Source: Candidatus Omnitrophota bacterium
GTDB lineage: Bacteria > Omnitrophota > Gorgyraeia > Pluralincolimonadales > Pluralincolimonadaceae
Assembly (NCBI GenBank): GCA_028716565.1
Contig: JAQUPL010000002.1
Coordinates: 160,670 to 194,988, forward strand
Reading direction: 5' to 3'
Length of the DNA: 34,319 nucleotides
Shown: positions 127 through 28,073 of the stretch, one piece after another
How positions within the stretch are numbered: position 1 is the stretch's first letter
Layout of the letters: each line of letters opens with the position of its first letter
Program-made: the position numbers and the translations under genes
The notes under the pieces: generated by a model
The model's database searches: none
Told to the model about the DNA's origin: nothing
The model's input: the letters and a program-made list of their open reading frames with translations, nothing else

Positions 127-846
127 ATGAAAATAACGAGAAAAGCTAATAGGTTAGATAGCTTTGATGAGTTACTTTCTTTTGCTGAGAAAAATACACT
201 AACTAAGTCGCAAAGAGTATTAACAAAATTACAAAAAAAACTGTTTTCTCGAAAATCGCAAAAAAACTTAACCCATCTCTTAACGTACCTTATGCTAAAA
301 AGTAATTTAAAAAGTGTGCAAATTATAAAAATGCTTATCAAGAAAAAGCACTTTGATGAAGCAATGGCGTTAATAAGGATGATTATTGAACGATGCGCCC
401 TCGCATTATATAGTTTAGAAAATAACCTTAAAGTAGAATCCATTGAGAAATTGAATGGGGCAAAAGTTATTGGACATTTGAAAAGAAAATTTGCTGATGT
501 TGGGAAATTCTATGGCTATTTTTCTGAAATAGCACATTCTAAACCTGACCCTTCTATCCATTTTTGGATTCTTAGTCTTCAAGAAAATAAAAAAAACAGC
601 GATAACGATAATGAAAAATTCAAAGAAATGATAATAATTCTGAGATGTCTATTGTTTTTTGCTACTGAAATCAATTTCACTATAATTAAATTTTTGGCAA
701 AAGATTACCTTAATGTAAAATCTTATTGGGAACTGGATAAAGATAATTCGTGGAATTATAATCCCCACCATAAAAGTGGGTCAAAATTAATATCTGAAGA
801 TTTATTAGATTTATATTCTCATTACGTGCGTACAGTCGAAACCTAA
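127..846 (+). CDS. Hypothetical protein, AT-rich, possible integron-cassette gene
   Basis: I do not recognise this 239-residue protein with confidence. It is lysine- and isoleucine-rich, has no signal peptide and looks mostly helical. Residues about 75-105 (around AMALIRMIIERCALALYSLE) weakly recall DUF5677-like hypothetical proteins, which are often found near mobile elements; that is only an impression. The ATG at 127 follows a weak AGG ribosome site and a plausible promoter at 36-63. Base composition and codon use (AAA, ATT, TTA) differ sharply from the GC-richer genes after position 2000, which suggests transfer. The stop codon TAA (844-846) lies inside the left core of an attC-like palindrome, as is usual for genes in integron cassettes. 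Confidence 0.75.
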   Translation: MKITRKANRLDSFDELLSFAEKNTLTKSQRVLTKLQKKLFSRKSQKNLTHLLTYLMLKSNLKSVQIIKMLIKKKHFDEAMALIRMIIERCALALYSLENNLKVESIEKLNGAKVIGHLKRKFADVGKFYGYFSEIAHSKPDPSIHFWILSLQENKKNSDNDNEKFKEMIIILRCLLFFATEINFTIIKFLAKDYLNVKSYWELDKDNSWNYNPHHKSGSKLISEDLLDLYSHYVRTVET

Positions 847-916
847 CATTTCACTCAAACGGATTATCACAGCATCCCGTTTTTAAAAGGCCAACCGTTG
901 AGTCAAAATGTTATAT
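841..916 (+). other. attC-like imperfect palindrome (putative integron recombination site)
   Basis: The left core ACCTAAC (841-847) matches the attC R'' consensus RYYYAAC. The right end is GTTATAT (910-916), close to GTTRRRY. TAACATTT (844-851) pairs with AAATGTTA (906-913). After a short unpaired spacer, ACTCAA (853-858) and CGG (860-862) pair with CCG and TTGAGT (895-903), leaving A859 unpaired as an extrahelical base. The order core, spacer, inner arm with extrahelical base, and about 30 bases of variable loop is the attC architecture. The left half resembles well-known sites such as that of the aadA cassette (ATTCAAGCCG). The right core deviates at one consensus position. Confidence 0.55.
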
Positions 917-1986: not shown

Positions 1987-2060
1987 TGCCCCGTTGGGTA
2001 ATGGTAGCCCACAAGATTCTGGATCTTGCTGTCTAGGTTCGAGTCCTAGCGGGGCAACCA
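1987..2060 (+). tRNA. tRNA-Gln (anticodon CTG)
   Basis: A complete cloverleaf is visible: acceptor TGCCCCG (1987-1993) pairs with CGGGGCA (2050-2056), followed by discriminator A and an encoded CCA (2058-2060). The anticodon stem CAAGA/TCTTG encloses loop TTCTGGA, giving anticodon CTG for CAG codons. The T arm carries GGTTCGAGTCC. It marks the junction between the AT-rich patch and the GC-richer chromosome, and lies 22 bases upstream of a secreted-protein gene on the same strand. Confidence 0.95.
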
Positions 2061-5861: not shown

Positions 5862-7016
5862 TTATTTTGCCTCGGCTACCGGCGTCCCGGGCCTTAGTCC
5901 CATCTGGCCTACCGTAACGACGGTTTCGCCGGCCTTTACGCCGTCCTCGATAATTATGTGGTCGTCTTCCTTACTGCCGACGGTAACATTTCTCAGGTCC
6001 GCCTTCTTGTCAGGGGAGACGACGAAGATGTAATTTCCCTGCTGTCCGATCTGGACGGCCTCGTACGGGACCACCACGGCATTCTTCTTTATCGAGAGAT
6101 GCAGCCGGACCGTTACAAACTGCCCTGCCCAAAGTTCCATATCATGATTCGGCACTATCGCGCGCAATAATACGGTCCCGGTCGTGTTATTGACCGCGTT
6201 GTCAAGGAAATGGAGCTCCCCTTCGTAGGAATCCCCTTCATTCCCCGCCCTATCCTGCGACGACTCAGATCCTTTTTCAAGCGTTAACACGACCTTTAAT
6301 TTGCCTTCGGACATAGCTTTTCTTACATTGCCGAGCTCCCGCTCGGGTATCGTAAAATCCACATAAAGCGGGTCTACAGTCTTGACGTTAACGAGCGTAG
6401 GCCCGTCGTTTGCCGTCACTATGTTGCCCAGGTCGACCTGGCGCTTTCCCGTTAGGCCGTCTATGGGGGAAGTTATATAGCAATAATTCAGATTGATCCT
6501 GGCGAGGTCTATATTAGCGTTGTCGCTCTTTACCGCGGCTTCGGACGAGGTCACGTCTGTCTGGAGCTTATCGAAATCCTGCTGGGAAATGAGTTCTTTT
6601 TCGAGGAGCTTCCTGTTCCTTTCGACCGTATCCTTATTTAGCTTAAGGTTGGCGAGGTCCTGTATCAGCGCCGCGTCGGCCCTTTCCAGCTGGGCCTTGT
6701 ACTGGCTGGGATCGATCGTGAAGAGCAGGTCCCCTGTTTTTACCAGGTCGCCTTCCTTGAAATTCACCTGCATTATCTGGCCCGTGACCTGCGATTTTAT
6801 GTCCACGTCGTTGGGAGAATCGAGATTTCCGAAAGATTCTATGAATACGACGACATCTTTCTTTTCAGCCAGCGCCGTTTCCACATTGCGGGGAGGGATC
6901 ACCGCCTTGGCCGGCTTCTTTATGAGTTTCGAGATAAAGAAGACCGCCAAAAAGATTATCAGCAGGACGACCGCTAATTTCAGGAACCCGAATAACCTGT
7001 CACTTGTTTTGTTCAT
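5862..7016 (-). CDS. RND efflux periplasmic adaptor (membrane fusion protein, HlyD/AcrA family)
   Basis: This 384-residue protein has one N-terminal membrane anchor (about residues 10-30, LKLAVVLLIIFLAVFFI). A biotinyl-lipoyl-like half follows (SQVTGQIMQVNFKEGDLVKTGDLLFTID is spread over residues 73-100). Then come a coiled-coil hairpin (about 105-160), the second lipoyl half (YITSPIDGLTGKRQVDLGNIV) and beta-barrel and membrane-proximal domains, ending in a TVVTVGQMGLRPGTPV motif typical of AcrA-like adaptors. It bridges the RND pump and the TolC-like channel. The ATG at 7016 follows a GGGAG ribosome site and overlaps the end of the TolC-like gene by 17 bases. The next gene begins one base after its stop. 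Confidence 0.96.
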   Translation of the reverse strand: MNKTSDRLFGFLKLAVVLLIIFLAVFFISKLIKKPAKAVIPPRNVETALAEKKDVVVFIESFGNLDSPNDVDIKSQVTGQIMQVNFKEGDLVKTGDLLFTIDPSQYKAQLERADAALIQDLANLKLNKDTVERNRKLLEKELISQQDFDKLQTDVTSSEAAVKSDNANIDLARINLNYCYITSPIDGLTGKRQVDLGNIVTANDGPTLVNVKTVDPLYVDFTIPERELGNVRKAMSEGKLKVVLTLEKGSESSQDRAGNEGDSYEGELHFLDNAVNNTTGTVLLRAIVPNHDMELWAGQFVTVRLHLSIKKNAVVVPYEAVQIGQQGNYIFVVSPDKKADLRNVTVGSKEDDHIIIEDGVKAGETVVTVGQMGLRPGTPVAEAK

Positions 7017-10382: not shown

Positions 10383-11387
10383 ATGGAGTTTAAGGTCGGC
10401 ATCTGCGGCCTTGGAAGAAGCGCGCAAGAGTTCCACATACCTTTGATGAAGAAGGCGGGGAATTTCAGGATCGTGGCGGTATGTGACACGATACCGGGGC
10501 GCCGAAGGGTCGCGGACAGGGATTACCACACTATAGCTTTCTCGGATTATAGGCACTTCCTTGATACGGACATAGACCTGGTCGTGATAGCGACCCCTTC
10601 GAGCAGCCATTTCAGGATAGCGAAGATGGTCCTGGAGGAGGGCAAGCATTGTGTCGTCGAGAAGCCCATAGCGCTCTCCCTGAAAGAGGTGGATTACTTA
10701 ATAAGGCTCGCCCATAAGAAGAGGGCCGTGCTTTCGGTCTTCCAGAGCCGCCGGTTCGACGGGGATTTCCTTACCGTCAAGAGGATCCTTGACGAAGGCC
10801 TGCTGGGCGAACCGTTCACGATCGAGTCGCGCGCGACCTCATACGGCTCTTTGAAGAATTACGGCGTGAAAGAATTCAACCCGGCCTGGCGTTATAAGAA
10901 GATATACGGCGGCGGCATACTTTATGATTTCGGCTCGCACCTGATCGACCAGATGCTCTGCTTGGCCGGCGAGCCGCCGGTCTCGGTCTTCTGCGACATG
11001 AAGTCGGTCCTCTGGTCGAGGGAAGTCGACGACTATTTCAAGCTTTTGATAAGGTTCCGCGGAGGGATGACGGCGCATCTCGAGGCGAGCCAGGTTTCGC
11101 GGTATAACCTGCCGCGCTGGTACGCGCTCGGGACGAAAGGCGCCCTCTTAAGCGAGAACGGCGGGCACCCGATAAAGGTGAAGACGCAGATAAAAGGCGA
11201 AGAGTTCGAGCGCACCTATCAGGTGGATCCCAGCCGTTGGGAACAGTATTACATGAACCTTTATGACGTTTTGATGCACAGGGCGCATCCGATAATAAAG
11301 CTCGAAGAGGTGCGTAAATCAGCCGCGGTGATAGATGCCGCGCGCATTTCGGCCCAGAAAAAAAGAGAAGAAACAGTAAGATATTAA
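10383..11387 (+). CDS. Gfo/Idh/MocA-family NAD(P)-dependent oxidoreductase
   Basis: This 334-residue protein has the N-terminal Rossmann fold (FKVGICGLGRSAQEFHIP, residues 3-20), the ATPSSSHF stretch after strand 4 (70-77) and the family signature EKP (93-95, inside CVVEKPIALSL). The C-terminal alpha/beta domain carries GGGILYDFGSHLIDQM with the conserved Asp and His used in catalysis. It is expected to oxidise or reduce a sugar or sugar derivative in the cytoplasm. The ATG is two bases after the stop of the isomerase gene. Only four bases separate its stop from tRNA-Glu, which is unusually tight. Confidence 0.94.
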   Translation: MEFKVGICGLGRSAQEFHIPLMKKAGNFRIVAVCDTIPGRRRVADRDYHTIAFSDYRHFLDTDIDLVVIATPSSSHFRIAKMVLEEGKHCVVEKPIALSLKEVDYLIRLAHKKRAVLSVFQSRRFDGDFLTVKRILDEGLLGEPFTIESRATSYGSLKNYGVKEFNPAWRYKKIYGGGILYDFGSHLIDQMLCLAGEPPVSVFCDMKSVLWSREVDDYFKLLIRFRGGMTAHLEASQVSRYNLPRWYALGTKGALLSENGGHPIKVKTQIKGEEFERTYQVDPSRWEQYYMNLYDVLMHRAHPIIKLEEVRKSAAVIDAARISAQKKREETVRY

Positions 11388-15997: not shown

Positions 15998-18900
15998 ATG
16001 AAAAAAATAATTGCGGCATCGATCTTTGCTCTCTCGGCGGCACTCGCTGCGCTCGCTGCAAATATCGCTTTCGCGCAGCCGGACCTGCCCTGGGAAAGCT
16101 TTGAGAAGGAAAAATTATCATGGGCGCCCGTCCCCTGGGATAACGCCCATGAGGTGGGGCTGTCGAGGGTTAGGGACAACGTTACCGAAGGCAGACGCGC
16201 TTTGCGGATGGATATCAAGGAGGACGTAAGCAAGAGCAAGAACAAGGCCGGGATATTCCATGAAGAGAATCTCGACCTCTCCAAGCATAACCTCGTCCTC
16301 GATATCTACGTCCAGTCCTCCGAGGCGGCGTCGGCGGCCGTCGGTTTCGAGACCGGAAACGGCTGGACTTATTACGAATCGATGCCGGTCAAATTGAAGA
16401 AAGGCTGGAACAAGGGTGTCGTCTTCGTGTTGGACAAGGCGAATTTCGAGTGTAAGAGGAGCAAATGGAATTACAATGCGAACCTTGCCAACCGCGATGA
16501 TATAAGGAAGGTCGTCATACTTATCTACGACACCGTCATGTTCGAGGCGGAGACGATATATATAGACAACATAAGGTTCAGGCCGACGCGGAAGCTGGTC
16601 ATGCCTTTTTCTTTTTGGGCGACAGCCTTTGCGGAAGAGGCGAAAGGGGAAACGAAAGAAGAGACAAAGATAATATCAGTCACCGCGAGCGCCCCGGAGA
16701 TACCCAAATACGGCAAGTTTGAACTTACGGTAGACCTGAAAGCCGCCTTTAAGAACCCGTTTGACCCGGAAGAGGCGGACTTGAGCGCCGCTTTCACGAG
16801 TCCGGGCGGCGAAACGTTCATAGTCCCGGGATTCCTCTACTCGGCGAAGTTAGACGCGGATAATAATTACGTTGAGCCGGTCTGGAAGATCAGGTTTACC
16901 CCTATGCGGGAGGGGGAGTGGAGATATGCCGTTCGCCTGAAGACCCCGGCAGGCGAAGATAAGACAGGGGCGGCATCCTTTAAGTGCGCGGCGTCCCCGC
17001 TGAAGGGCTTCGTCCGCGTAAGCAAAAAGGATCCAATATATTTCGAATACGATAGCGGAGAGTTCTATTACCCGTTGGGCGAGAACGTATGCTGGGCAAG
17101 CCTGCCGGGCTACAAAAAATATTTCACCGAGATGAAGAAGGCCGGCGACAACTGGTCCAGGGTATGGATGTGCAACTGGGAGGTAGGCATCGAGTGGGCC
17201 AAGGGCAAAGATTACCGCGGGCTGGGCGAGTATAGCCTGAAAAAGGCGGAGAAATTGGACGAGATAATCAATTTGGCCAAAGAGAACGGCATTTTTTTTC
17301 AGCTGGTCCTCAATCACCACGGGCAGTTGAGCACAAAGGTCAACCCCCAGTGGAACGAGAATCCTTATAACATAAAGAACGGGGGGCCCTGCGGCAAGCC
17401 GCAGGATTTTTTTACGAATGCGTCGGCTAAAAAATATTTCAAGAACAGGATGCGTTATATAGTCGCGCGGTGGGGTTACAGCCCGAATATCATGGCGTGG
17501 GAGCTCTGGAACGAGCTCACTTTCATAGACGACCTTAACCTGGATACGGACGCGGCGTGGCATAAAGAGATGGCCTCATATATAAAAGATATAGATCCCA
17601 ATAAGCACCTGATAACCACAAGCTATGCCGGCACGTTCCACGATTACGGTTTTAACAAGAAACTCTGGGAGTTGCCGGAGATAGACTATACGCAGTTCCA
17701 TATGTATACACATGAAATCGTCTCGGCGAACATGGGCGCTTACAGGCTCATGAGCCAGTTCAAAAAGCCGTATTTCATGGCTGAGATAGGGACCGATTCA
17801 TCCGACGACGTGGACGCGAAGGACCTCGACGGCGCGTATATCCACGCCGCGATCTGGTCCGAGTATATGCTCGCCTGCGGCGGGAACGCCATGCCGTGGT
17901 GGTGGGATAAATATATCCATCCGAAGAAACTGTATTACCACTGGGCCGCGCTTTCGGCGTTCGATAAGGGAGAGGACAGGCGGTATAAGTTTTACAAGAC
18001 GTCTACAGCCAGGGTTCTGGCCGAGACGGAAGGGCTAAATTCGCCGGTATATGCGATCGGGCTTTTGAATAACTTAGAAGGAGCGGTCTGGATCTTCGAC
18101 CCCAAGTGGACCAAATTCGAGCCGAACCATCCGGAGCCGCCTTTTATAAAGGATGCGCTTGTCAGGATAAACGGCCTGGTCGGGGGAAAGTATAAAATAG
18201 AGTTTTGGGACACATGGAAGGGGCAGATTATTGAGACGAGGGAAGTGAAGTCCGACGCTGACGGGATAGACGTTAAACTGCCGCCTTTCAAGAGGGATAT
18301 GGCGTTTAAAATAAAGTCGGTCGAAACTGTGATCAGAGCCAAAGGCGGCAAACAGGCCGAGCTCGTCTCGACCACCCCGATGCCGATAGGATTTACCCGC
18401 AAAGAGATCGTGGCGAAGAAGGCTGCCGGGCCGATAACCATAGACGGGGATCTCTCCGATTGGAAGCTTTCGAAGTTCGGTGAGGACCAGGTCGCATCGC
18501 TCTCGAAGGGCTCAGCCAGATTTTACATCCTTTATGACGACGAGAACCTGTATTATGCCGCGGACGTAAAAGATGACACGGTCATCGGTAACCAGCGCGG
18601 GGTGGATATCTGGCGCGACGATGCCGTGGAATTCTGGCTCGACGCCAAGGGCGATGCCGATATATTCAATAACATGCCGTTCAATCCCGGGTGCTACCAG
18701 ATAGATTTCGCGCCGCTCACTAAGGACAGCCGGCCGGGCGTTTATGTCTACAGGAACATAAACACGAGGCCGGTCGCCGACGCGATAAAGACCGCTTCCA
18801 GGATATCCAAGGGGACAGGGGACAGCGGATACGTGATTGAGGCGGCCATACCGATACGCGCGATAACCGGGCTCGAGATGAAGGGCGGTAAGGTCCTCGG

Positions 18901-27256: not shown

Positions 27257-27319
27257 CTTGCCTTGTTCTTCAATAATCATTTAATCCTTGTTAAAACATC
27301 TTTGTTTACAATTAAATAG

Positions 27320-27333
27320 TATACTCGGATATA
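27320..27333 (-). promoter_or_regulatory. Operator C in the PEP-CTERM leader
   Basis: Read on the minus strand this is TATATCCGAGTATA, matching operator B at 12 of 14 positions. It lies 77 bases downstream of operator B, centre to centre, a spacing that would allow a DNA loop or cooperative binding. Confidence 0.55.
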
Positions 27334-27396
27334 CTAATCAATCAAAAGGAAAGGGGGGTCGACGAATGGTCAATAAAATATTAAAACTTCAAAAAG

Positions 27397-27406
27397 AAGG
27401 AGGTGA
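27397..27406 (+). promoter_or_regulatory. Full-length consensus ribosome binding site
   Basis: AAGGAGGTGA is complementary to all ten bases of the usual 16S rRNA anti-Shine-Dalgarno tail and ends seven bases before the ATG at 27414. It decides the start of the PEP-CTERM gene against two further upstream in-frame starts (TTG 27288, ATG 27366) and suggests high expression. Confidence 0.85.
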
Positions 27407-27413
27407 AACAATA

Positions 27414-28073
27414 ATGATGAAGTACATTGCAGTAATTGCAACGATGTTATTGGTAGGCAGCTCAGCGTTCGCTACAACTTTGTACGACTTCGAATCAGGC
27501 ACCCAGGGTTGGACTTTCCAGGATTATTCGGACAGCATGGCCGTATCAGCGGTCGCCCAGTCCGGCGATCAGGCGAAATCCGGTTCATACTCATTGGCAG
27601 GAACAACTCATCTGGTACCCGGAGACGCTAGCTTCAGTAAGGGAGAAGTCCTGGTCAATAGGGGCTCGTCTAACGCGCTTGATCTGCAGGGGGTATTGGC
27701 ATCCGTGTCGGTTTATGGTCCTACGGGAGCGGCAGGGACAAATCCTTCGTCCCCCAACGGATGGCAGATGTTCTTCAAGGACACGAGCTGGAAGTCATGG
27801 TACGGTCCGTGGAGTAACTTGACCGAAAACAACTGGACGACACTCTCTTCAACTTTAGGTTCCACAACTCCGGATTTTGTCGATTCAGGTTTTGACCCCA
27901 CTCGCGTAATGGTCATGGGCGTCAAACTCGGCACCGGCGACTCGTCAACAGGGACTTACGACGGTCTCATCTATGTCGATCAGTACGACGTAATTCCCGA
28001 GCCGGCGAGCATGCTTCTTCTCGGCAGCGGTTTAGTGGGCATCCTTGGTTTCGCCAGAAAGAAGAAAGCGTAA
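27414..28073 (+). CDS. PEP-CTERM surface protein with binding-module-like ectodomain
   Basis: This 219-residue protein starts at ATG 27414 on the strength of the AAGGAGGTGA site; ATG 27417 is also possible. Signal peptide MMKYIAVIATMLLVGSSAFA. The ectodomain (about 22-190) begins TLYDFESGTQGW and ends DGLIYVDQYDV, the same opening and closing strands as the glycan-binding modules in this locus, though otherwise diverged. The C terminus is a textbook PEP-CTERM sorting signal: IPEPASMLLLGSGLVGILGF followed by ARKKKA. Such proteins are processed by an exosortase and usually end up at the surface or in the matrix; no exosortase is in this window. It has its own promoter with two operator-like sites, and a terminator-like hairpin follows. 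Confidence 0.93.
   Translation: MMKYIAVIATMLLVGSSAFATTLYDFESGTQGWTFQDYSDSMAVSAVAQSGDQAKSGSYSLAGTTHLVPGDASFSKGEVLVNRGSSNALDLQGVLASVSVYGPTGAAGTNPSSPNGWQMFFKDTSWKSWYGPWSNLTENNWTTLSSTLGSTTPDFVDSGFDPTRVMVMGVKLGTGDSSTGTYDGLIYVDQYDVIPEPASMLLLGSGLVGILGFARKKKA

Follow-up and report, generated by a model that had tools for sequence, protein, structure and literature searches.

The window analysed here, a stretch of 34,319 nucleotides, corresponds to positions 160670-194988 of contig C2 in a 1.73-Mb Omnitrophota assembly (G000, 97% complete), and its positions 1-2026 are the right end of an integrative element of 11,153 bp that runs from C2:151499 to about 162,695. The insertion site is a tRNA-Gln (CTG) gene at 1987-2060 (+), recognised by both ARAGORN and Rfam. 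Namely, the 5' half of this tRNA constitutes the attR of the element (1983-2026, +) and is repeated at C2:151499-151542 (98% over 44 bp), a tyrosine integrase gene identified with Pfam and NCBIfam lies just left of the window (C2:159457-160533), and in a relative (G003:C73) a glycosyltransferase gene, an intact tRNA-Gln and a gene for a secreted protein are collinear with the locus in the absence of the 11,153 bp. All the hallmarks of a tRNA integrative element, i.e. the integrase, the tRNA-derived repeats and the empty site of a relative, are therefore present. The element also contains an excisionase-like HTH_17 gene. Its integrase scores 69 bits against the IntI family TIGR02249, where the cut-off is 265, and is not an IntI; as the preliminary description of the window had noted, there is no intI in the window, and this non-IntI tyrosine recombinase is the only one nearby.

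Several further genes deserve mention in their own right. A HigB-like / HTH-M78 pair lies in the element at L013:9856-12051 (G000:C2:151855-154050), and its second protein matches PD-Lambda-2_B of PADLOC (8.3e-32), which suggests that the element may carry a defence function. A tandem pair of genes, 68% identical and of no known family, occupies L013:15354-16079 and 16157-16876 of the same element. Elsewhere in the window, at 27288-28073, a secreted protein has, by eye, a PEP-CTERM-like C-terminus (VPEPASMLLLGSGLVGILGFARKKKA).

Inside the element, the intergenic palindrome at 841-916 (+), originally described as attC-like, is an integron recombination site attC. Alignment, folding and the covariance models R1 and R3 resolve it into R'' (841-847, ACCTAAC), L'' (853-862, ACTC-A-AACGG), L' (895-903, CCGTTGAGT) and R' (910-916, GTTATAT), in that order, the site having been aligned with seven attC sites of the same genome. 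The cores conform to RYYYAAC and GTTRRRY, with a single departure in R', and the site carries an extrahelical base, which can be any one of A857-A859 and is a C at that position in relatives. Model R3, built within this analysis, like all models with which we scanned the contigs for attC and attI sites, from ten other attC sites and excluding the window, finds 841-916 with 52.3 bits (E 3.9e-15). Model R1, which includes the window attC, gives 76.1 bits, the next unrelated match within the window being 9.7. In the attC alignment, 92% of the paired cells are paired in the attC structure, as against 20-40% after a slide of one to three columns, and covariation beyond pairing is modest with the eight sequences at hand. 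Folding of the bottom strand, put forward at the outset as a check, bears the assignment out: the strand folds more stably than its shuffles (z -2.3 to -3.3). Moreover, if the 5' end of the cassette, TTAGGT, takes the place of R', as it does once the cassette is circular, an outer stem of 11 bp closes in full and the fold reaches -14.3 kcal/mol (z -5.3, with 0 of 200 shuffles as good). The bottom strand of the site is expected to be the substrate of IntI.

The cassette to which this attC belongs is 795 bp long, beginning with TTAGGT and ending on the G of GTT (116-910, +). Its first six bases (116-121) complement ACCTAA of R'' at 6/6 positions, thereby completing the stem, and the start codon follows 6 bp downstream. 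The single cassette gene (127-846, +) encodes 239 amino acids with a weak resemblance to DUF5677 (E 0.0069; 16.9 bits, below the Pfam cut-off of 27.1), and its TAA stop codon (844-846) sits within R'', as had been claimed. Equally, the two genes flanking attC are AT-rich, having a G+C content of 0.29 and 0.32 versus 0.52 elsewhere in the window. The first of them is a cassette gene. The second, an AT-rich orphan gene inside the element (957-1751, +), has no match in Pfam, NCBIfam or PADLOC; as it has no attC downstream, it was dropped as a second cassette. Nor are the two genes fixed neighbours in relatives that lack the palindrome, a finding that would have spoken against an attC: among the five genomes of the genus, the gene at 127-846 occurs in this one and in none of the other four.

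Upstream of the cassette lies what appears to be its landing site. A Pc-like promoter, TTGAAA-N16-TATAAT (36-63, +; 11/12 consensus), points toward the cassette and is putatively functional, in an AT-rich stretch with 13 promoter-like sites, as compared with 8.7 in shuffles. Alongside it lies a degenerate attI-like site (57-115, +), which ends at the left end of the cassette and has no intI adjoining it. An attI model, R2, derived from ten attI sites (four linked to intI and six orphan) with the window excluded, matches 57-115 with 18.2 bits, the next match being 7.6 bits; the E-value is 7.3e-5 within the window and 0.0045 in a whole-genome search. The site is thus homologous to the attI sites of the lineage up to the crossover point, where the expected GTT is replaced by TTT. 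Two other comparisons speak less clearly. An nhmmer attI profile gives 10.6 bits on the window and 9.4 bits for the best reversed decoy, and an ungapped comparison in exact crossover register yielded no match for the window attI, whose spacing is one base off. With the register constraint dropped, positions 36-113 are identical at 56/78 ungapped positions to a region of G001:C3 upstream of a three-cassette group without intI, while shuffles reach at most 42 identities. This alignment was chosen after the in-register comparison had failed and, for that reason, the R2 searches are the cleaner test. The altered crossover triplet suggests that this attI copy may now be old or stranded.

Is there an integrase in this genome that could have placed a cassette here? 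A chromosomal integron in this lineage, as well as further attC copies and an IntI, had been raised as things to look for, and all were found on other contigs. The sole IntI of the genome, encoded at the start of contig C4, scores 402 bits against TIGR02249 (cut-off 265); its closest solved structure is Vibrio IntI4 (2a3v, E 1.6e-68), in an alignment that spans the IntI-specific stretch. Contig C6 carries an attI, together with some nine attC sites that belong to the family of the attC in the window. Since C4:1-127 and C6:1-127 are exact reverse complements of each other, we read the shared 127 bp as an assembly overlap, which makes intI, attI and the C6 array adjacent. Reaching to about C6:6500, the array has seven attC sites that score strongly (79-95 bits), together with a degenerate site at 576-660 and, near 6475-6505, half a site; among its cassette genes is one for a HEPN AbiU2 protein. 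By eye, a RelB/RelE-like toxin-antitoxin pair is also among the array cassettes (L011:5183-5729, G000:C6). In a relative, Omnitrophota fen_1319 (G001, PLNR01), intI, attI and attC sites occur in the same order on one contig. This genome therefore contains a chromosomal integron, having an IntI with its specific stretch and an adjacent attI and attC array. The C4/C6 locus resembles sedentary chromosomal integrons in its divergent intI, its attI and its array of same-family attC sites. Unlike them, the cassette in the window lies off the array, on a mobile element, behind a separate attI that no intI adjoins. What had been raised as a possible fragment of a cassette array is accordingly a single cassette with an attI-like platform of its own, in a tRNA-Gln element and on a different contig from the array.

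The arrangement recurs, both in this genome and in the family. The attC in the window is not the only lone site off the array: a second, of 70.5 bits, lies at C4:38892 and a third, of 58.4 bits, at C3:926. Reverse strands of real sites aside, the next match in the genome is the degenerate array site, with 13.7 bits. An attI scoring 61 bits lies at C3:333-397 with a cassette after it, again without intI, and the stretch that contains them has a perfect 57-bp repeat of a tRNA-Asp 3' end on either side (C3:71-127 and 11252-11308); the integrase of this second element is 56% identical to that of the element in the window. The tRNA-Asp element also encodes a type III restriction-modification pair (L015:1648-6134, G000:C3). 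The attC family of the window is present in eight of the ten family genomes. In G000, attachment sites attI of at least 28 bits are found at three places, or four if the window is counted; G001 and G008 have two such places each, G007 (DISH01, like G001 an Omnitrophota genome) has four, and G006 has four loci. By contrast, intI was found once each in G000, G001, G002 (also Omnitrophota, MHHC01) and G007 and in none of the other family genomes searched; its absence from G006, G008 and G009 is not firm because these assemblies are incomplete. Per genome, this amounts to at most four attI sites and at most one intI. In the relatives, six further orphan attI sites are each followed by a cassette. 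The places recur, gene names here being our reading of translated ORFs: after gltD in G001 and G007, in the alr-ilvD interval in G007 and G006, and in the ogt-prfB interval in G008 and G006, the last being also where the lone C4 cassette of G000 lies. No remnant of intI was seen near the orphan platforms in the regions examined, and several of them share a promoter that differs from that of the intI-linked sites.

Two additional observations concern the platforms themselves. A possible empty one lies at G000:C1:131351-131412 (L206:5352-5413), with an attI of 32 bits and an orphan-type promoter and no recognised attC after it. Upstream of several attI sites, at a distance of about 80-100 bp, the attI core occurs once more (L014:133-164, L073:2886-2917, L074:4080-4111), possibly an extra binding site for IntI. 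As for how widespread integrons are, 18 of 384 sampled Omnitrophota genomes have an IntI above the cut-off. In 15 other Omnitrophota regions with the integrase family of the element, neither an attI nor an attC of this type was found, though highly divergent sites could escape; the carriage of integron parts is thus not general among such elements, and the notion that it might be a trait of this integrase family is unsupported. In viral contigs, neither the core pattern of attI nor the integrase of the element had a match.

How, then, did the cassette come to lie where it does? We consider it likely that this attC belongs to a one-gene cassette captured at an attI-type platform of a tRNA-Gln element without intI, the host IntI probably having acted in trans. 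Namely, the single chromosomal IntI would bind and cut the folded bottom strand of the attC of a circular cassette and join the circle, in trans, to the attI of the window; once at attI, the cassette gene could be expressed from Pc, and the tyrosine integrase of the element could then move platform and cassette together between cells. Trans loading is favoured by the identical layout of the tRNA-Asp element, with its related integrase, and by the orphan attI sites and cassettes of the relatives, with no intI remnants about them. That said, the attI of the window is weak on its own, its spacing departs by one base from that expected and it lacks the crossover G, all of which counts against this explanation, as do the 15 regions with this integrase family and no such sites. 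On a larger scale, the integron of this Omnitrophota family may be dispersed, with one IntI and several attI sites scattered over the chromosome and tRNA elements, and with elements loading cassettes by means of the host IntI in trans, a picture that we judge to have an even chance of being right.

One alternative is that IntI inserted the cassette at a secondary genomic site of the attG type, with no attI there beforehand. Such insertions are known, and the cassette at C4:38892, which has no recognised attI, would fit them. We nonetheless think this unlikely for the window, where the attI-like block ends at the left end of the cassette in the correct orientation and the base preceding the cassette is a T rather than the G expected from insertion at G|TT. 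Alternatively, the element could once have held an entire integron, from which intI was then lost in place, leaving a CALIN with attI. The degenerate attI with its altered crossover would agree with such decay, as would an orphan attI region in G007 that hardly differs from its intI-linked counterpart, even in the stretch adjoining intI; given that the orphan platforms examined have no intI remnant nearby and that several share a promoter different from the one found at intI-linked sites, this account, too, is improbable. A chance palindrome, a terminator or another hairpin, as an intergenic position between AT-rich genes might suggest, is ruled out for all practical purposes by the match of R3, a model that had not seen the window, no terminator-like site having been found at 841-916 and the cassette 5' end complementing R''. 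It is possible that the tRNA-Gln element was imported ready-made, and possible as well that an intI formerly lay inside it; the most economical account is the trans loading, by one IntI, of several attI platforms that tRNA elements have acquired.

The one precedent comes from the Shewanella prophage M16-3, where a complete integron and an array without intI each have an attI of their own (PMC9892861). The likeness lies in a cassette array on a mobile element that has its own attI and no intI, with a complete integron elsewhere. The prophage is a single case, with both parts in one prophage and nearly identical attI sites; the Omnitrophota, unlike it, have several scattered platforms and tRNA-inserted elements, and belong to another phylum. 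By default, IntegronFinder 2 reports attC clusters without an integron from at least two attC sites (PMC9024848), so that a single attC would be passed over. The window resembles such CALINs, or a single attC outside an integron, in having an attC with no intI nearby; it differs in having an attI and a promoter ahead of the cassette and, elsewhere in the genome, a gene for a matching IntI. Loot and colleagues, in a 2024 study named in PMC11023631 and PMC12901181, are said to have reported attG insertions, i.e. cassettes entering genomic sites outside the integron. Our cassette likewise lies outside the integron array, whereas its receiving site is attI-like and not a non-classical genomic site. 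Searches of the literature by title or abstract found no system of attI sites apart from intI, and searches on integrons in Omnitrophota returned a single paper, which treats a different topic. Relative to the literature examined, the novelty appears to lie in how many platforms there are, in the fixed places at which they recur, in the link with tRNA elements and in the phylum.

Our results document integrons in Omnitrophota. Lone attC sites are usually taken as noise, decay or random insertion. Several of those described here sit behind attI-like sites without intI, on mobile elements and at places that recur. Should IntI indeed work in trans, the integron of these bacteria would be a network rather than one locus, and mobile elements could draw cargo genes from the cassette pool of their host.
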